A program made the position numbers and the translations under genes. This document shows positions 4,867 through 56,980 of a DNA stretch of 64,000 bases, piece by piece. The notes under the pieces are model-generated. The model did not search any database. It was given only the letters and a program-made list of their open reading frames with translations, and was not told where the DNA came from. The DNA comes from Balneolia bacterium. Its GTDB lineage: Bacteria > Bacteroidota > Rhodothermia > Balneolales > Cyclonatronaceae. The DNA is taken from contig JAIUMA010000010.1 of NCBI GenBank assembly GCA_022565795.1, positions 1 to 64,000 of the forward strand, given 5' to 3'. The first letter of the stretch is position 1, and every line of letters starts with the position of its first letter.

Positions 4867-7770
4867 ATGTATTCTTATATGATGCGACTTACTGCGCATC
4901 TTTTGCTTCTGAGTCTGTTCGTTTTTACGACTACAGCAAAGGGTCAGGAAGCTCCGGCTCTGTATAATCAGCCTCCGGAATTTTCACTTCAGCCGGGCTT
5001 TTACGATGATGCCATCGAGCTCGAAATACTTCATCCTTTACTGGGAAGCGACTTTACGATTCATTTCACAACAGACGGAAGCGTTCCGAATCGGAACTCA
5101 GCTGTCTACGAGGAAGCCATCACCCTTGAAAACCGAACGTCTGAAGAGAATCATCTGTCTTCGATTCGCACCAATCCCCCGGAAGCCGACAATTTCAACT
5201 ACAGGTGGGAAGAGCCTAACGGACTGGTGGATAAAGCCACTGTTGTACGTGCCGTAGTTTTCAATCCGTTTTCGGAGACCTACTCTCCTGTTTTAACAGG
5301 AACCTACTTTGTGGGAATTGAGACATCCGTACTGCCCATTGTATCCTTCAGTCTGGATGAAGAGCATTTCTTTGATCACGAAACTGGAATTTATATTCCC
5401 GGCCGGGAGTATGAGGAAAACGGATTCGGAAATCCGCCCTGGGGAACCCATGCAAACTATTTCATGCGTGGCGAAGAGTGGGAGCGCCCGGCGCATTTGG
5501 AACTTTTTGAAAATAACGCCAAGGTATATGAAACCGGTTTAGGCCTACGTATTCACGGAGCCGGATCCAGAGCTGCACCTATGAAGTCTTTACGACTTTA
5601 TTTCCGGAGTGATTATGGCGACTCGGGCATGTTTTACCCGATTTTTGGAGAAAATAACGATGCTGACTTCAACAGGCTTATTCTGAGAAGCTCGGGTCAG
5701 GATTTTTACCTGCGCTCTACTATGTTCAGAGATGCTTTCATGCAGCGACTGGCCGAAGGTCTGAATGTTACTACACAGGACTATCGCCCCGCAGTCGTCT
5801 TTATTAACGGGGAATACTGGGGAATTCATAACTTCAGAGAGCGTTTCGACCGGCATTTTTTTGAACGTGTTTTTAGCGTAGCTGAAGGTGAACTGGATTA
5901 CCTTGAGGGCAACAGCGAGATACAGGAGGGCGACAACACCAGCCATATCGAGCTCATGGAGTTCATCAGGCTTAACGATTTGAGCACAGATGAAAATTAT
6001 GCATACGTTATTTCGCAGTTCGATAAGGGTAACCTGCTGGACTATTTCATCACACAAATTTATATCCGAAATACAGACTGGCCGGGTAACAACCTGGACT
6101 ACTGGCGCTTCAGCGGAGAGCCGGATTCTATTGTTCCTGAAAAAGACGGACGCTGGCGTTATCTGCTTTTTGATACCGACTATGGCTTTGGCCATAACAC
6201 CAACGGCGGAACCTATCAGCACAATACACTCGAGTTTGCTACTTTGCCAGACGGTACCGGCTGGCCCAATCCCGAGTGGTCGACGAGAGTCCTCAGAAAG
6301 CTTCTGGAAAACGATGATTTCAAGACAAAGTTTATAGCCCGGTTCTCAGACCTGATGAATACAGCCTTCACGCCGGATCGCGCCATCGGCCTCATTTATG
6401 AAATGAGTGCCGTTATAGCTCCGGAGATACAACGGCATAGTGATCGCTGGCAAAAGCTTGCTTCGGTTGCACAATGGGAGGTTCATCTCGAGGCCATGCG
6501 GGAATTCGCCATACAAAGGCCTGACTTCCAGCGACAGCATTTGCAGGAATTTTTTGAGTTGGGTGAACTGATTGAAGCTGAAGTTAACATCAGCGCCCCT
6601 TTTTCAGGCGTCATAGCACTTAACACCATTCTGCTTGACGAAACGGAAGGGACCACATTCCCGTGGAGCGGGATGTACTTCAGCGGTCAGACTATGGAGC
6701 TTGAGGCAAAATCCATGCCTGGTTACGAATTCAGCCACTGGGTGATAGATAATGAGGAATATGATGAAACCTCGCTCACCATCACCCTTGATGAAGATCT
6801 TACAATTCTTGCTGTATTTGAAGCATCTGAGGATTGGGGCGATGTGTTTCCATTGCCTCACCCTGTTGCGGAAAGCAGCTTTGAGTTCACAAGCTGGGCT
6901 CCGGATTCAGAACCCGGCAGCTTTCCCGAATCTATGGCTTTTGTTTACATGGATCGCAAGGAGCCTCGGGCAGGAGCCGCCATAGCAGGCTACACCAGCG
7001 GCGCATATAATCTTGACAGCCGAACCCGCATTAACGGGCTCGGCCACGAAGGCTTCTCGTTTATCAATACCGGAAATGAGGAAGGCAATCCCGGCTATCC
7101 GGGCGTACGTCTTGGGGGTGCCATTCTGGCAATTGACACTCGTGAAGTCGAAAACCCTGTAGTAACATGGGAGGCCGGCACCATATTGCCGAACTCAAGA
7201 ATCTACAACCTCAGGCTGGAATACAGAATAGGCAACTCAGGAACCTTCAAACCCCTGGAAAATGAAGCCGGGGAGCCGATAATATACAGCGGGAATCAGG
7301 AAGAAGGTCATCTTCAGGTTTTCCCGCAAATATCACTACCGCAAGATATAGCTGGTCGACCATACGTACAATTGCTCTGGAGGTATTACTATTCAGGTAC
7401 CAGACTCAGCGAGGACTCCGGAGACCGTTCTCAGCTACGTGTAGGATCTGTAACTGTTAGCGAGGGGCCACCCCTCAGCGAGCCGCCTGAACCTATTGAT
7501 ATACCTGAGACCATCGAGCTGTTCCAAAACTATCCGAATCCGTTTAACGCGCAGACTGTCATAACTTTTAACCTGCCGGAATCACAGCAGGTAGTTCTCC
7601 GGGTATATGACGTTCAGGGCAGACTGATTTCCACCCTGCTTGATGGTTCCCGAAGTGCAGGAACGCACCGTATAACCTTCGATGCAAACGCTCTTTCAAG
7701 CGGCGTTTATCTCTATACGCTGGAAACTGCTTCAACCCGGCTCACCCGAAAATTACTGTTGTTAAAATAA
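4867..7770 (+). CDS. Secreted CotH-kinase-family protein with T9SS sorting domain
   Basis: This is a 967-residue exported multidomain protein. A hydrophobic signal peptide occupies about residues 1-26; a second possible start (MM) follows four residues in. Residues about 38-150 resemble the chitobiase/beta-hexosaminidase C-terminal-type domain (TTDGSVP). A CotH kinase-like domain follows (about 190-560), with HGAGSRAAPMKSLR, LRSSGQDFYLRS, INGEYWGIHNFRERFD and FDTDYGFG (about residues 437-444), the acidic metal-binding motif. A PGYEFSHW segment near 620 is like a bacterial surface repeat. The last 80 residues (NYPNPFNAQT to the LTRKLLLLK end) are a type-A T9SS sorting domain. CotH proteins are atypical protein kinases in Bacillus spores; the substrate here is unknown. 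The protein is probably secreted or surface attached. Confidence 0.88.
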   Translation: MYSYMMRLTAHLLLLSLFVFTTTAKGQEAPALYNQPPEFSLQPGFYDDAIELEILHPLLGSDFTIHFTTDGSVPNRNSAVYEEAITLENRTSEENHLSSIRTNPPEADNFNYRWEEPNGLVDKATVVRAVVFNPFSETYSPVLTGTYFVGIETSVLPIVSFSLDEEHFFDHETGIYIPGREYEENGFGNPPWGTHANYFMRGEEWERPAHLELFENNAKVYETGLGLRIHGAGSRAAPMKSLRLYFRSDYGDSGMFYPIFGENNDADFNRLILRSSGQDFYLRSTMFRDAFMQRLAEGLNVTTQDYRPAVVFINGEYWGIHNFRERFDRHFFERVFSVAEGELDYLEGNSEIQEGDNTSHIELMEFIRLNDLSTDENYAYVISQFDKGNLLDYFITQIYIRNTDWPGNNLDYWRFSGEPDSIVPEKDGRWRYLLFDTDYGFGHNTNGGTYQHNTLEFATLPDGTGWPNPEWSTRVLRKLLENDDFKTKFIARFSDLMNTAFTPDRAIGLIYEMSAVIAPEIQRHSDRWQKLASVAQWEVHLEAMREFAIQRPDFQRQHLQEFFELGELIEAEVNISAPFSGVIALNTILLDETEGTTFPWSGMYFSGQTMELEAKSMPGYEFSHWVIDNEEYDETSLTITLDEDLTILAVFEASEDWGDVFPLPHPVAESSFEFTSWAPDSEPGSFPESMAFVYMDRKEPRAGAAIAGYTSGAYNLDSRTRINGLGHEGFSFINTGNEEGNPGYPGVRLGGAILAIDTREVENPVVTWEAGTILPNSRIYNLRLEYRIGNSGTFKPLENEAGEPIIYSGNQEEGHLQVFPQISLPQDIAGRPYVQLLWRYYYSGTRLSEDSGDRSQLRVGSVTVSEGPPLSEPPEPIDIPETIELFQNYPNPFNAQTVITFNLPESQQVVLRVYDVQGRLISTLLDGSRSAGTHRITFDANALSSGVYLYTLETASTRLTRKLLLLK

Positions 7771-50913: not shown

Positions 50914-51339
50914 CTACATGGAGCCCAGGCGGAAAATAACGGGCTGAATAAGCTCTCCATAGACTGGTTCTCCGTTTAGAATCCCCGGATTATACTCAAC
51001 TTGATAAAAAGCCGTTTTGGCCGCTTTATCTAGCGCATCATTACCCGAACTCCGCTCGATGCCCATCCAACGAATTTCGCCCGCAGGGTCAACCACTACT
51101 TTTACCAATACGCGTCCTTCAATTCCGCTGCGCCTTGCCTGGTCCGGATAGCGCAAGTTTGCATACATAGCCATTAACCCGCCTATCATTTCGGGGCCAC
51201 TGTCTAAATCTGCAGATGTATAAACGACGAGGTCATCAGGAAGGGGTTCAAAAAACAACTCTGGTGTTTGGGAAGTTGATGAGCAGCCTGCTAGAATAAG
51301 CAAGACTAAAAGAGCCGTTCCGATGGTACTTGTGCGCAT
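50914..51339 (-). CDS. TonB C-terminal-domain lipoprotein
   Basis: About 141 residues from the ATG at 51339 (MRTSTIG), which places a lipobox LILAGC correctly; a start ten codons upstream is less likely. The mature part has the TonB C-terminal pattern YPDQARRSGIEGRVLVKVVVDPAGEIRWMGIERSSGNDALDKAAKTAF. There is no N-terminal transmembrane anchor and no proline-rich linker, so it is not a classical TonB but a lipoprotein with a TonB-type domain. It is the last gene of the minus-strand block that contains the glycosyltransferase. Its role is unknown. Confidence 0.82.
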   Translation of the reverse strand: MRTSTIGTALLVLLILAGCSSTSQTPELFFEPLPDDLVVYTSADLDSGPEMIGGLMAMYANLRYPDQARRSGIEGRVLVKVVVDPAGEIRWMGIERSSGNDALDKAAKTAFYQVEYNPGILNGEPVYGELIQPVIFRLGSM

Positions 51340-51404
51340 AAAAAGATTGGTTATGTGGGTGTTGGCCACCTAATATAATCAATACTTTCAGAAGATAGGA
51401 TTGC

Positions 51405-52820
51405 TCAGGCAGCTTTTTCCTTAGCGATGCCTTCACGCTTCATTTCACCCCACTCCTTATCTCCCTTGAGGTAGGCAATAATTCCCCGTAGTCGCCACCA
51501 CACGTGTAGCTGACGATATCCGAGATTTTCAAGCAGTGCGTAGAGTGCCAGCTTCAAAACATCTCGTCCTTTGGAGTAACGACGCACCGTCAACTCTTCC
51601 AGAAGCACGGCGCTTAGCGAAAGAATCATTCCAAGCACAACAGCAACAAAGAAAAAGACGAGCGCAAAAGTTGTGTTCACAATGCCAAACATCCACGAAA
51701 CAATTACCAGGATATAGCCGCTAAGCTCAATAATCGGTGCAAGCAACTCGCCCACAATGAAAAACGGCATCGCGACTGTTCCAAGTTTGCCATACTTTGG
51801 ATTAAGCGTCATATGCTTGTATCGCCACAGTGAATCGGCCAAGCCACGCTGCCAGCGATTTCTCTGTCGGGCGAGGGTTTTGTAGTCTTCAGGCACTTCC
51901 GTCCAGCATACCGGATCGGAGATAAATCGTATCTTGTAAGGAATATTCTCTTTGATGTAATGGTCATGAAGCCGCAGTACGAGCTCCATGTCTTCACCTA
52001 CTGTGTCGTGTACATAGCCACCTACACGAATTACCGCACGGCGGTCGAATACGCCAAAAGCTCCGGAGATAATCAGAAGTGCGTTCAGGTAATCCCATCC
52101 TACACGGCCGAAAAGAAACGCCCTCAGATATTCCACGGCCTGAATTCTTCCGAAATATGATTTCGGAAGTCCCACTTCAGCTAGCTGCCTGTTTTTGAAG
52201 GTACAGCCATTGGCCACTCGAACTACTCCACCTACCGCGATGGTATTTTCATCCTCCATGAAAACACGAAGCATCTTCAGAATCACATCCGTTTCCAGAA
52301 CCGAGTCGGCATCTACGGAACAGATGAGTTCATTCTTTGCCATATTAATTCCCGCATTCAGGGCATCAGCCTTCCCGCCGTTTTCTTTATCAACAACAAG
52401 AAGCTTCGGATAACGCTCTGACGAGAAAACGGCCTTAATGGGCTTATTTTCGACAAATTTCGGCCTGTGGCGATCATCGGGAACAAGTTTGAAGTAATCG
52501 ATCAGGCGCTGTAAAGTTTCATCCTTACTGCCATCATTCACTACGATTACTTCGAAATTTGCGTATTTAAGGTTCAGCAGCGAATTAACAGAATTGATTA
52601 CCGACTCTTCTTCATTATATGCAGGGGCTATAATACTAACCGGCTTATAAAGTTTCGTCGAGTAAACGCCGGTCATCTGGAAAATCCGATCGATATTCCG
52701 ATACCTGCGAATATGGAAAAACGAGGAAATAACCAGAAACAAATACATTCCATTAATCAACACGAAGTAAATTATTACAAGGATGTTGATAATGACAATA
52801 ATGCTAATAAAGACCGACAT
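51405..52820 (-). CDS. Membrane-bound processive family-2 glycosyltransferase
   Basis: The 471-residue protein has an N-terminal membrane segment (about 1-35), a cytosolic GT-A domain and several C-terminal helices (about 346-435). The GT2 motifs are present: NDGS (95-98), DAD (170-172), GED (275-277) and RQRNRW (318-323), matching the D, D, D, Q(Q/R)xRW series of processive synthases such as cellulose, hyaluronan or poly-N-acetylglucosamine synthase. No PilZ domain is visible, so cyclic-di-GMP control by that route is unlikely. The start overlaps the HEAT-protein gene by 17 bases. The product is probably a beta-linked polysaccharide extruded through the membrane; the sugar is unknown. Confidence 0.9.
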   Translation of the reverse strand: MSVFISIIVIINILVIIYFVLINGMYLFLVISSFFHIRRYRNIDRIFQMTGVYSTKLYKPVSIIAPAYNEEESVINSVNSLLNLKYANFEVIVVNDGSKDETLQRLIDYFKLVPDDRHRPKFVENKPIKAVFSSERYPKLLVVDKENGGKADALNAGINMAKNELICSVDADSVLETDVILKMLRVFMEDENTIAVGGVVRVANGCTFKNRQLAEVGLPKSYFGRIQAVEYLRAFLFGRVGWDYLNALLIISGAFGVFDRRAVIRVGGYVHDTVGEDMELVLRLHDHYIKENIPYKIRFISDPVCWTEVPEDYKTLARQRNRWQRGLADSLWRYKHMTLNPKYGKLGTVAMPFFIVGELLAPIIELSGYILVIVSWMFGIVNTTFALVFFFVAVVLGMILSLSAVLLEELTVRRYSKGRDVLKLALYALLENLGYRQLHVWWRLRGIIAYLKGDKEWGEMKREGIAKEKAA

Positions 52821-53916
52821 CAGCTGCTCCGCTTCGTTTGATTTCTACCCATTCGTTTTTTAACTCATCCGAAAAAGCTTGTACTATTTTATCTGCATCG
52901 GAGGATTTACACAGAGCTTTTTGTGCAAATATTCTTACTTCAAGATCTGAATCCTGGCTAAGTATCTCTAAAATATGCTCCAGCCCTGGTTCATACTGAT
53001 TCAGCGCCCATTTCGCTACAGCCAAACGGACCAGGGTATTGGGTGATTTCCATAGCTCATTAGCCATGATGTATTTTTTTGCTCCCGGGTCGTTCAGCTC
53101 ATTCAAAACCTCAATAAGAGTAGCTCGGTAAACCCCCTGGTTATCCTGCGGGTGGCCGGTATTTAAAGATTCTAAAAGAATATCTCTCAGCTGAAAATAA
53201 CCGAGCTCCGGAATAATTCTGATTAGCGATGCAGCCGTATTTACCGGAATCCTGGGGTTTTGAATACATATTCCCAGTATGGCGGCCGCTGTATTGCTGT
53301 TCTCGTGTTTACCACAATACTTAAAGACAATATCGTTTACCGCCATTGAGGCATTTTGGCTGCGCTCAAGAAAGGTTTTGAACGCCTCATCTCGGGTTTT
53401 CTCATTAGGAGAATTAATAAGCGCCAGTGTTGAAGAATAGTTCAGAACATTATAAGGGTGCTTCTGCAGCTCTTTTAGCTTATCCAGAATTGAGGCGTTG
53501 GCAATATTTTTCTGAGCAAAATACCGGCAGGCCTGCGCTACATCCGTTGGCTGGTTTGAATCCAGGCGGCTTGCAAAATATCTGTGAAACTTCTGGATCC
53601 CAAGCAGCTGACGCAGCTTTTCTCTTTCTTCACCCCTCATGTTATCAATGAGAAGGTTCAGCGTACGGAATGCCGTTACAACGTGCTGAGCAGTAACCAA
53701 ACTGTTTGAGAACTCATTTTCCGAAAGTTTACCGTCCAGGTACTCGTATATAAGAGGCTGCACTTCCTGCTCAGCAATATTATATCTCTTTTTGTCGCGA
53801 TTTAGCTTTACGCGGTGCAGACTAGTGTAAAGAATCAAAATAATGAACAGCACTATTAAGACTGCAAGAATAACAGTCATTACCGTAGCAGCTATGGAAT
53901 CGTTTGGAATCAGCAT
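52804..53916 (-). CDS. Membrane-anchored HEAT-repeat protein
   Basis: The 370-residue protein has one N-terminal transmembrane helix (about 9-31) and then a cytoplasmic all-helical solenoid with HEAT-like repeats (RYFAQKNIANASILDKLKEL, ... GDPQDNQ-type helices, ... NTLVRLAVAKWALNQYEPGLEHILEIL, SDLEVRIFAQKALCKSS). HEAT repeats are protein-binding scaffolds. The gene starts at the base after the response-regulator stop and overlaps the glycosyltransferase gene, so all are translationally coupled. A role as adaptor between the phosphorylated regulator and the synthase is inferred from this position. Confidence 0.8.
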   Translation of the reverse strand: MLIPNDSIAATVMTVILAVLIVLFIILILYTSLHRVKLNRDKKRYNIAEQEVQPLIYEYLDGKLSENEFSNSLVTAQHVVTAFRTLNLLIDNMRGEEREKLRQLLGIQKFHRYFASRLDSNQPTDVAQACRYFAQKNIANASILDKLKELQKHPYNVLNYSSTLALINSPNEKTRDEAFKTFLERSQNASMAVNDIVFKYCGKHENSNTAAAILGICIQNPRIPVNTAASLIRIIPELGYFQLRDILLESLNTGHPQDNQGVYRATLIEVLNELNDPGAKKYIMANELWKSPNTLVRLAVAKWALNQYEPGLEHILEILSQDSDLEVRIFAQKALCKSSDADKIVQAFSDELKNEWVEIKRSGAADVGLY

Positions 53917-54294
53917 TTATGACTCCGTTATATCTAACGCCCGCTCAATTCGCATCAGCAGGCTATCCATATTGAAGGGCTTCTGAAGGTAGTCGTGAAT
54001 TCCCAGATCAAATAAAGCTTTAACCTCGTCAGTAACCTCTTTTCCGGAAAGAACTAATATTTTGCCCATGTCCATGAGCTTCTCTTCACGAATTCGCTCA
54101 GCTACCTCACGGCCGTCCAGGCCGGGCATCATCATATCGAGAATAAGCAAATCCGGCTTTTCTTTTCGCACCAGATCGAGCCCGTCGAACCCGTTATCTA
54201 CGTGCTTCACCTCATATCCTTGCTTCGAGAGCTTGAATCCGATGAAACGCGCTACGTAAGTATCGTCATCGATTAATAGTATTGTCTTACCCAT
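53917..54294 (-). CDS. Single-domain response regulator (CheY-like)
   Basis: The 125-residue protein is only a receiver domain. Acidic pocket residues are Asp9-Asp11, the phosphoacceptor is Asp53 (ILDMMMPG), the switch Ser is in LVLSGKE (Ser83) and the conserved Lys is Lys105 (LQKPF). There is no output domain, so it must act by protein-protein contact. It lies between the histidine kinase and the HEAT protein, with zero spacing to the latter. Confidence 0.95.
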   Translation of the reverse strand: MGKTILLIDDDTYVARFIGFKLSKQGYEVKHVDNGFDGLDLVRKEKPDLLILDMMMPGLDGREVAERIREEKLMDMGKILVLSGKEVTDEVKALFDLGIHDYLQKPFNMDSLLMRIERALDITES

Positions 54295-54309
54295 AGGTAA
54301 TCAAGTGAG

Positions 54310-55527
54310 TCAGTTTGGAATCGAAATATGAATCATGGTTCCCTTCCCGGGGGCTGAATCTACAGCAATATTTCCTAAATGCAGTTTAACATATTTTTGG
54401 ATAGTAGTCATCCCTATTCCTGTGGAAGGTTCACCCTCTGTTCCAGGCCTTCGGATTTCGCCACCTCCGCCAAAAAGCCGCCCCTGAAGCTCCGAATCCA
54501 TACCAATTCCGGTATCAGATACTTTAAGAACAAGCATGCTCCCGTCGTCGGAAGTTGACATGGTTAAAAAAACATTCCCTCCCGACGGAGTGAATTTACA
54601 GGCATTATTTAAAAGATTCCCAATTATTTGTTTCCACTTTTCGCCGTCTACTTTCCACATCAGGCTATCGGGGAGATCTGACGTGAAATTTTGATTTTTG
54701 AGCATCATAAAAGGCTGCATCAATGTAATAACTTCTTTGGTTAGAGCAGCAACATCCGTTTGTCGTCTGTTTATGGTAAAAGCCTCATTTTTAACATATT
54801 CGGAGCTTAAGAGCACATTTACTATCCCCAGAATAGCTTCGCCCGAGTCTTCGATAATACCCAGAATCTCCCTGTGTTCATCATTATCTGTCTCCTGTTT
54901 CAAGACTTCAGAAAATCCGATAATACCCATTAGGGGATTGCGCATGTCATGACTCACAATTTTTATGAGCTCATCTTTCTCGCGGTTGTTTTGCTGGAGT
55001 CGATTACGGGTATAGTTCAACTCAAATTGTGAAATAATTTCATCAGCAAGAATCTTAATTGCCCTACGCTCTCTCTTCGTTAGCTTATTAGGCTTATGGT
55101 CTATAAGGCACAAGCTCCCTATGTTATAACCATCGGGCGTTTTTAGCGGAATACCAATATAATACACTATCTTGAGACCACTATTCACGTTTGGATTATA
55201 CTTGAAATACGGGTGCTCGCGGGCATCTTCAACTTCAAGTATTTCGTCCTTCGCTATTGTAAACTGGCAAAAGCTGGCGTTTTTTGGGGTAGTTTTACCA
55301 TCATAACCATAACAGGCTTTCTTAAACTCTTTATCTTCAGTGAGCAGATTAATGAAACCAATCGGCAGATCACAAATCTCGGCTGCCAGCTGTGCCAGCC
55401 TGTTAAAGGATTCTTCCTGCTCCGGCTCGGAGTCCAGCCTCTCGTATCTTTTAAGCGCTTCTACCCTTTCCTTTTCGTGCTCCAATACCGGAAAAGGGGC
55501 AAAATCAAGCCATTCATCTCTGTTCAT
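54310..55527 (-). CDS. GAF-domain sensor histidine kinase
   Basis: The 405-residue protein has an N-terminal GAF domain (about 35-165, with FCQFTIAKDE and IGSLCLID), no transmembrane helix, then a HisKA domain with phosphoacceptor His193 (IVSHDMRNPLMGIIGF) and an HATPase domain: N box GNLLNNACKF (303-312), G1 SDTGIGM (337-343) and a G2 region STGIGMTTIQKYV (368-380). It should sense a cytoplasmic ligand or redox state and phosphorylate the next-encoded response regulator. It is the first gene of the minus-strand unit and divergent from the YaiO-like gene. Confidence 0.93.
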   Translation of the reverse strand: MNRDEWLDFAPFPVLEHEKERVEALKRYERLDSEPEQEESFNRLAQLAAEICDLPIGFINLLTEDKEFKKACYGYDGKTTPKNASFCQFTIAKDEILEVEDAREHPYFKYNPNVNSGLKIVYYIGIPLKTPDGYNIGSLCLIDHKPNKLTKRERRAIKILADEIISQFELNYTRNRLQQNNREKDELIKIVSHDMRNPLMGIIGFSEVLKQETDNDEHREILGIIEDSGEAILGIVNVLLSSEYVKNEAFTINRRQTDVAALTKEVITLMQPFMMLKNQNFTSDLPDSLMWKVDGEKWKQIIGNLLNNACKFTPSGGNVFLTMSTSDDGSMLVLKVSDTGIGMDSELQGRLFGGGGEIRRPGTEGEPSTGIGMTTIQKYVKLHLGNIAVDSAPGKGTMIHISIPN

Positions 55528-55669
55528 AATCTGTTTAAATGCTTAGCGGAAAGTCCATAAGCAACTTCCAAAACCCAACGGCTCCCATTAGCCGACAACC
55601 TTATTTATTCGTATAATATAACAAAACTTTTTTGTTAATTGATTCTAATTCTTCTGTCTAAAGAGACCT

Positions 55670-56524
55670 ATGTCTATGAATGATAATAGCTTTGATGCGC
55701 ATAGCCATTCCATGCACATTCTGCCTGCATTTTTTCTGCTCACTTTTCTGATTAGCCTGTTTTCATTTCCGGCTTATTCACAATCCGAAAGTTTTCCAAA
55801 ATGGACAGCAGGCATTTCTCAGCAGGTAGACTTTTTCTCCGATTTTTATGATGAGCAGTACATCACTCAGTTTTCGCTCATTTCAGAGTTTTCACGCTCA
55901 ACATGGATCGCACACGTAAACCAAGGCTATCGTTTCGAGCAATGGGGAACTCAGCTCGAGCTTGAAGCCTATCCGCAGCTTGGCGATGGCATTTATGCGC
56001 TTATTAATTACGCATATTCCCCCGATGATATCTTCCCTGAACACAGAGCAGGATTTGAGCTTTTTGCATCTGTGCCTCCCCGTAGTGAAGTTTCTTTGGG
56101 TTTCAGGTATCTGGACTTCCGTGGCAATGCTCAAAGCCTGATTTTCACCGGAGCGCTTACGCACTACTGGAACAGCTATATGTTTACTCTGAGGCCCTAT
56201 TATACCATGACAGACCTGGGCGACGGACAGACACTAACCCTCTTGGCGCGCCGTTTCTTCAATCTCGAGCGCAGCTACATCCAGCTTTTCGGGGGCTTTG
56301 GTACCACAACTGAAGACATCATCCTTCAACTTGTTGATGGTGCTTTCCAAGAAGATGTGCTTCTTCTCAAGTCTCAACAGCTATTACTATCCGGTCGTTT
56401 TCACCTGAGCAACCGTTGGTATCTTACGGCTGAAACCGGACTTATTCGCCAGGAACTGGGCTTCGATCCTGATAACTACGTAAATAACTACCGCGTAAAA
56501 GCCGGCTTCTACTTCCGGTTCTGA
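55670..56524 (+). CDS. YaiO-like outer-membrane beta-barrel protein
   Basis: The 284-residue protein has a signal peptide ending near FPAYSQS (a charged N-terminal tail precedes it; an inner ATG at 55712, MHILPAFF, is an alternative start). The mature part has about twelve amphipathic strands with aromatic ends and closes with the strand YRVKAGFYFRF, whose terminal Phe is the BAM recognition residue. Its size and pattern (WIAHVNQGYRFEQWGTQLELEAYPQLGDGIYALINYAYS) fit the YaiO family. It is divergent from the histidine kinase and probably exports or anchors the polysaccharide of that locus; this is inference. Confidence 0.82.
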   Translation: MSMNDNSFDAHSHSMHILPAFFLLTFLISLFSFPAYSQSESFPKWTAGISQQVDFFSDFYDEQYITQFSLISEFSRSTWIAHVNQGYRFEQWGTQLELEAYPQLGDGIYALINYAYSPDDIFPEHRAGFELFASVPPRSEVSLGFRYLDFRGNAQSLIFTGALTHYWNSYMFTLRPYYTMTDLGDGQTLTLLARRFFNLERSYIQLFGGFGTTTEDIILQLVDGAFQEDVLLLKSQQLLLSGRFHLSNRWYLTAETGLIRQELGFDPDNYVNNYRVKAGFYFRF

Positions 56525-56980
56525 TTACAATCCCATCTCTTCGAGGATATCATTCCCGGGCCCAACCTCAATATCCATGCCCGATTGCGCATAAACAGCT
56601 ACACCGTTTAGCATCCCCGGTGTGAACCTCATGTTGTATACATTTTCCATGATGACTAAATCAACCTGCTCATCACCGGAGCTCTCTGTTACGACAATAT
56701 TTTTTGGTTTCCCCTCCGGAGTTATCACATATTCGACACTTGAGGTGCCGGAAAACCCTACTCGTGCCAGCCTTCTGTTATTCTCGCGCATTTCTTCTAA
56801 ACCAAATTCATTGTAGTTCACGCGAGGAGGTTCGTCCAGCTCTTCAGATGAAAAAACATAGACATCAGGGGGCAAAACGGGAAAATCTTCAGGTTGCATA
56901 GTCGAACTACTCATGCATGAAGTTAAAACAAAACATAGCACCAACAGGGCTAACAGTCGTCTGAAATACGGGTAAATCAT
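56525..56980 (-). CDS. Second TonB C-terminal-domain lipoprotein
   Basis: The 151-residue protein has a lipobox-like VLTSC at the end of its signal peptide. The body has a degenerate TonB-type domain (FSGTSSVEYVITPEGKPKNIVVTESSGDEQVDLVIMENVYNMRFTPGMLNGVAVY). It shares block order with the lipoprotein at 50914-51339 (a V-Y/V-F-x-S strand, TonB domain, NPGILNG versus TPGMLNG), so the two are paralogues. It stops immediately next to the YaiO-like gene and follows the esterase gene at 57018 in the same direction (37 bases), so it could belong to either neighbour unit. Confidence 0.75.
   Translation of the reverse strand: MIYPYFRRLLALLVLCFVLTSCMSSSTMQPEDFPVLPPDVYVFSSEELDEPPRVNYNEFGLEEMRENNRRLARVGFSGTSSVEYVITPEGKPKNIVVTESSGDEQVDLVIMENVYNMRFTPGMLNGVAVYAQSGMDIEVGPGNDILEEMGL

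Follow-up and report, generated by a model that had tools for sequence, protein, structure and literature searches.

A 2020 survey of synthase-dependent systems covers five exopolysaccharides (cellulose, acetylated cellulose, poly-N-acetylglucosamine (PNAG), alginate and Pel), and the typical machine that it describes includes a regulatory part binding cyclic-di-GMP (c-di-GMP) (PMC7112194). In E. coli NfrA-NfrB, the gene for a family-2 glycosyltransferase (GT2) synthase adjoins that for an outer-membrane TPR/barrel protein (PMC8669469). In Myxococcus xanthus, the single-domain response regulator (RR) EpsW, when phosphorylated, activates a polysaccharide enzyme, EpsZ, at the post-translational level; the reported model is direct binding with no HEAT partner, and EpsZ is a Wzx/Wzy-initiating monotopic phosphoglycosyl transferase (PMC12802240). 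We analyzed a stretch of 64,000 nucleotides from a Balneolia bacterium (assembly GCA_022565795.1, contig JAIUMA010000010.1, positions 1-64,000; the whole stretch is called the window below) in which a cassette at 51,405-56,524 encodes a sensor histidine kinase (HK), a stand-alone receiver (RR), a HEAT-repeat protein, a processive GT2 and a YaiO-family barrel. We lean towards reading it as a synthase-dependent exopolysaccharide machine in which HEAT protein and GT2 form the constant unit and the phospho-receiver acts via the HEAT protein on polymerization without c-di-GMP. The words HEAT, YaiO and response regulator are absent from the survey's main text (PMC7112194), and we found no study of the HEAT/RR/GT2/YaiO combination in the open-access literature; the sole paper with both annotation terms (PMC10434189) has the proteins in separate table rows. 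The cassette consists of the following features:

51405-52820, minus strand: GT2, processive family-2 glycosyltransferase, 471 aa, without PilZ
52804-53916, minus strand: membrane-anchored HEAT-repeat protein, 370 aa; helix 4-60 (transmembrane (TM) segment plus stalk) and a predicted cytoplasmic alpha superhelix
53917-54294, minus strand: receiver, stand-alone single-domain RR, 125 aa; D9/D10, D53, S83, K105
54310-55527, minus strand: HK, 405 aa, soluble, GAF-like, with HisKA and HATPase_c; lineage-specific
55528-55669, no strand: divergent intergenic region between HK and barrel, 142 bp; putative shared promoter region
55670-56524, plus strand: YaiO-family outer-membrane beta barrel, 284 aa; PF19413, TIGR04390; proposed export pore

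The four genes HK>RR>HEAT>GT2 run head to tail from 55527 to 51405 on the minus strand, with 15 nt between HK and RR, 0 nt between RR and HEAT and a 17-nt overlap of HEAT and GT2, and the YaiO barrel is divergent, exactly as an earlier note on this DNA had described the packing. The same order beside YaiO recurs in four order relatives (L031-L034), with two exceptions inside the set: the kinase of L031 is a remnant and the YaiO gene of L034 is cut at the contig end. This arrangement is far beyond chance.

The HEAT protein and the synthase

Loci were selected by GT2 similarity, independently of HEAT, and those from order relatives, a genome scan, a phylum sample and plasmid records were pooled as fetched loci. 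The scan searched 84,980 species genomes with a GT2 alignment, and the best 80 of at least 575 relatives, from about 20 phyla, were read. HEAT, RR and YaiO were called with profiles built in this analysis; domain evidence comes from Pfam and NCBIfam models with their cut-offs, from AlphaFold2 models and from Foldseek structure matches. HEAT lies directly upstream of GT2 in 158 of the 160 fetched loci, and in 147 of 149 when only non-redundant loci with enough sequence are counted. The pairing extends over Bacteroidota, Bacillota, Actinomycetota, Proteobacteria, Deinococcus and haloarchaea, and in the window's phylum 93 of the 394 genomes sampled have the GT2 family. Among order relatives, HEAT adjoins GT2 wherever the contig extends far enough; the HEAT-like proteins of L051 and L052 are short. 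We searched for relatives that keep the GT2 without HEAT, the pattern that the earlier note had set against its own proposal, and found none: both exceptions to direct adjacency are Nitrospira with a HEAT match elsewhere, 4 kb off on the other strand in L127 and, as a weak match of 25 bits, 6 kb upstream in L133. In one clostridial metagenome-assembled genome (MAG; L128), HEAT and GT2 form a single open reading frame (ORF) of 980 aa, a natural fusion. A second apparent fusion, L076, was rejected as a false 5' extension, its HEAT being a separate ORF in another frame. Public annotation likewise places HEAT next to GT2 on plasmids of haloarchaea, Mesorhizobium, Deinococcus, Bacteroides, Planococcus, Legionella, Devosia and Erythrobacter, and beside GT2 in rhizobia. 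In contrast, no HEAT match lies in the neighborhood of a different GT2 family of the same order, which scores 130-152 bits on the profile. Pairwise distances give HEAT-GT2 the strongest partial rho of the pairs (0.58), a statistic that ignores phylogeny. The role of HEAT-GT2 as a constant unit is thus well supported, and we consider it highly probable that the two proteins form a complex.

A second type of processive-GT2 locus in the order (L134-L138) has no HEAT match nearby and carries, in 3 of 5 loci, a 485-aa protein with a receiver (REC) domain directly beside the GT2.

The window GT2 matches Pfam Glycos_transf_2 with 97 bits, otherwise has only GT2/chitin-synthase matches, and shows no PilZ or other regulatory domain above Pfam cut-offs. 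The D,D,D,Q(Q/R)xRW series without PilZ that the earlier note had recognized is real and near-invariant in 66 homologues: D96 and D100 (NDGSxD), D170 and D172 (DADS), E276-D277 (GED) and Q319-R320-N321-R322-W323 (QRNRW). The structural model has a predicted local distance difference test score (pLDDT) of 90 and a predicted template-modeling score (pTM) of 0.90, and its Foldseek matches are hyaluronan, cellulose and chitin synthases. Motifs and model together support its assignment as a predicted inner-membrane processive polysaccharide synthase. In L039:6078-8666 (plus strand) and L040:5051-7120 (minus strand), the GT2 has a long C-terminal extension past an extra TM segment, SPOR-like by eye and with no Pfam match. 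Directly downstream of the GT2 in L110:8370-11639 and other Bacillaceae loci is a conserved single-TM protein of about 1080 aa, likewise with no Pfam match.

The HEAT protein scores 29.2 bits on Pfam HEAT_2 (cut-off 27.7), a model that 80 of 81 HEAT homologues match independently. An AlphaFold2 model built with the 81 homologues (pLDDT 95, pTM 0.86) has one 57-residue helix, residues 4-60, that comprises TM segment and stalk and is followed by an alpha superhelix. Charge distribution predicts an N-out/C-in topology with the superhelix cytosolic in 80 of 81 homologues, the mean K+R count being 0.4 before the TM segment vs 4.7 after it. HEAT superhelices are typical protein-binding scaffolds. 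For the model, all that Foldseek returned were HEAT/ARM proteins of generic type and designed repeat proteins (alphaRep), which gave no functional lead. One homologue, L050:8173-9618 (minus strand), carries at its N-terminus a sub-threshold LysM-like domain, predicted to lie outside the membrane, ahead of TM segment and HEAT.

The receiver, the adjacent kinase and cyclic-di-GMP

Response_reg covers the whole window RR with 93 bits, and no other domain scores above cut-off. Of the 94 unique loci whose sequence extends 4 kb or more in both directions, 79 have a receiver domain upstream on the same strand and 12 have one downstream; among discordant loci it is upstream only in 67 and downstream only in 0. 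The phospho-acceptor aspartate (D53) is kept in 125 of 133 receivers and K105 in 127 of 133, and the receiver gene often abuts or overlaps the HEAT gene. These data support the receiver as a regulator to a moderate degree, and action via HEAT is the most economical reading of them. On a Planococcus plasmid (L146), genes for a polyphosphate-polymerase-domain protein, DUF4956 and CotH precede HEAT-GT2, in the receiver's place.

The kinase matches HisKA (52 bits) and HATPase_c (69 bits), with GAF_2 just below its cut-off (26.1 bits, E 1e-5; cut-off 28.6). Adjoining the RR in the window, it is likely the phosphodonor of the receiver.

In the window genome, estimated to be 100% complete, neither GGDEF nor PilZ has a match, and GGDEF is also without a match in 22 order relatives with this GT2; control genomes (8 and 5) did give matches. 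Judged by gene content, c-di-GMP control appears very unlikely in the window lineage. The independence from c-di-GMP that the earlier note had proposed thus fits this lineage and does not extend to the whole family: among 36 proteins, long or of non-canonical makeup, that occupy the receiver position in other phyla, Response_reg is present in 21, GGDEF in 11 and Hpt in 9, and the active GGDEF motif is readable by pattern in 8 of the 11 GGDEF-bearing proteins.

The YaiO barrel and the product

The barrel is a clear YaiO member (PF19413, 148.2 bits vs a cut-off of 23.9; TIGR04390, 131.1 vs 32). Among the loci of the genome scan, YaiO occurs at 36 of 54 from diderms vs 1 of 22 from monoderms (Fisher p 4e-7, a test that ignores phylogeny and is not used here as a probability). 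This bias fits a role in export across the outer membrane and bears out the earlier note's view of the barrel as the outer-membrane part; YaiO is probably the export pore. The window YaiO has no TPR and many relatives fuse TPR to YaiO, so the contrast with TPR-scaffold systems that had also been drawn does not hold for the family. No functional study of YaiO was found among the open-access papers listed, judged by titles and abstracts.

LTA-synthase-type (LTA, lipoteichoic acid) sulfatase-family domains are fused to the GT2 in the Bacteroidota loci L181, L183 and L186 (GT2 ORFs of 1134-1260 aa) and are encoded beside it, with TPRs, in the Bacteroidota/Balneolota relatives L041, L045 and L077; periplasmic decoration of the polymer is a possible function. 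On a Halosolutus plasmid (L139), a haloarchaeal RR-HEAT-GT2 set is followed immediately by a gene for a sugar nucleotidyltransferase and by glmS, a hint that the substrate is an amino sugar. Together, these neighbors suggest that the polymer of the family may be an amino-sugar one, at times carrying phospho-substituents. The window cassette itself is neighbored by TonB_C proteins and an esterase (Pfam). Two small TonB_C-domain proteins of 151 aa each flank it at 50914-51369 and 56525-56980, both on the minus strand and both with signal- or lipoprotein-like N-termini.

A proposed mechanism and its place among known systems

In the mechanism that we favor, the GT2 would polymerize a cytosolic nucleotide sugar and pass the chain across the inner membrane by a TM channel of its own, and in diderms the YaiO barrel would carry the chain across the outer membrane. 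The HEAT protein, held by its single TM anchor with the superhelix in the cytosol, would stay in constant complex with the GT2. The receiver would be phosphorylated at D53, in the window's clade probably by the neighboring soluble kinase, and would then bind the HEAT superhelix, altering the HEAT-GT2 contact and thereby switching polymerization on or off without c-di-GMP. That the receiver-HEAT contact is the switch seems to us rather more probable than otherwise.

Several observations weigh against this mechanism. No receiver is found within 4 kb upstream in 15 of the 94 loci (Deinococcus, Bacteroides, Legionella, Planococcus and others), which indicates that HEAT-GT2 works without an adjacent receiver; of the signal chain proposed in the earlier note, the phosphorylatable upstream receiver is borne out, although it is not universal. 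Only close relatives of the window have the adjacent kinase, the least conserved part of the cassette. In the sister genome L031, where the RR-HEAT-GT2 set is intact (RR, HEAT and GT2 are 92%, 77% and 88% identical), what is left of the kinase is 132 aa long and lacks GAF and HisKA (6470-6868, minus strand), possibly through an error of MAG assembly. The step from kinase to receiver is therefore the weakest link of the chain, and the kinase input of the earlier note stands for the window and not for the wider family. Four same-genus genomes have no family-level GT2 match, which makes the cassette accessory. The tracking of HEAT above GT2 by receiver distances, which speaks for the mechanism, is modest (partial rho 0.23 for RR-HEAT vs 0.13 for RR-GT2, ignoring phylogeny) and suggestive only. 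Finally, in other phyla the receiver position can hold an Hpt-REC-GGDEF-REC protein, which takes this place in Bacillaceae and stands beside the receiver in Neomarinimicrobiota, several with a GG(D/E)EF motif.

The stronger HEAT-GT2 distance correlation, a linkage (147/149) far tighter than that of the receiver (79/94) and the several loci without a nearby receiver would also be expected if HEAT served the synthase constitutively, as a structural or assembly subunit comparable to PgaD or a co-polymerase, and passed no signal, with the receiver acting elsewhere and only co-inherited. Against such a passive role stand the one-sided position of the receiver (67:0 among discordant loci), its conserved phospho-site, its frequent abutment or overlap with HEAT, its tracking of HEAT above GT2 and the protein binding typical of HEAT superhelices, and we judge it improbable. 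Phosphorylated receiver might instead bind the GT2 directly, as proposed for EpsW-EpsZ, where no adaptor takes part, leaving HEAT to organize the complex. Here the lower RR-GT2 correlation and the near-constant retention of HEAT argue the other way, and we give this version little credence.

The GGDEF proteins at the receiver position in Bacillaceae and beside the receiver in Neomarinimicrobiota raise the further thought that a nucleotide second messenger is the true ligand of HEAT-GT2 and that the window form is degenerate. This is an outlying prospect given that GGDEF is without a match in the window genome and its 22 GT2-bearing relatives, and PilZ in the window genome. A comparably slight chance attaches to a product that is a wall- or lipid-linked glycan rather than a secreted capsule or biofilm polymer, with YaiO not its exporter. 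The LTA-synthase-like sulfatase-fold proteins that several relatives encode next to the GT2 or fused with it, the LysM-HEAT homologue L050 and the presence of HEAT-GT2 in monoderms would suit it, but the processive QRNRW synthase fold resembles hyaluronan synthase, BcsA and chitin synthase, and YaiO is biased to diderm loci.

If phosphorylation does act through HEAT, it would explain how processive synthases are controlled in bacteria without c-di-GMP enzymes, such as the window lineage, and would offer a defined three-protein system for reconstituting phosphorylation gating of a polymerase. A synthase family common in the phylum and beyond has a constant partner unlike those of the surveyed machines, usually together with a phospho-receiver, and the widespread, uninformative labels 'HEAT repeat domain-containing protein' and 'YaiO family' gain a concrete context. 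More broadly, the chances seem even to us that HEAT-GT2 is the core of an undescribed pan-prokaryotic synthase-dependent class, haloarchaea included, in which the HEAT superhelix replaces a PilZ- or PgaD-type regulatory part and the input is interchangeable: it may come from a phosphorylated stand-alone receiver or from a diguanylate cyclase with a receiver domain, or no regulator may adjoin the pair.

Measured against the definition of synthase-dependent systems (PMC7112194), the window GT2 qualifies by motifs and processive fold as an inner-membrane polysaccharide synthase, whereas a c-di-GMP-binding domain or co-polymerase is missing, with no PilZ on the GT2 and no GGDEF or PilZ in the genome. 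The closest named GT2 family by score is PgaC/IcaA, and the locus shares with Pga/Ica an inner-membrane synthase combined with an outer-membrane barrel; the TPR-YaiO fusions of relatives resemble the PgaA layout. Unlike Pga/Ica, the window locus has no PgaD, deacetylase (PgaB/IcaB) or PgaA, and no c-di-GMP machinery was found in the genome. Assignment of the GT2 as a PgaC/IcaA equivalog was rejected (TIGR03937, 148.6 bits vs a cut-off of 422.3). With BcsA, the bacterial cellulose synthase, it shares the processive GT2 fold (Foldseek match), but BcsA is gated by PilZ and c-di-GMP and the window GT2 lacks PilZ; an identity as BcsA was rejected on the absence of this domain and on the CelA model TIGR03030 (34.8 bits vs 699). 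NfrB was rejected too, as the MshEN c-di-GMP domain is not among the Pfam matches of the GT2, and in contrast to NfrA-NfrB the window has a separate HEAT protein and a receiver. The stand-alone receiver with intact phospho-acceptor is like EpsW, by analogy with which control of a polysaccharide enzyme is proposed, although the candidate target here is a processive GT2 and not a monotopic phosphoglycosyl transferase. We file the locus as a variant of synthase-dependent polysaccharide machines outside Pga, Bcs and Nfr.

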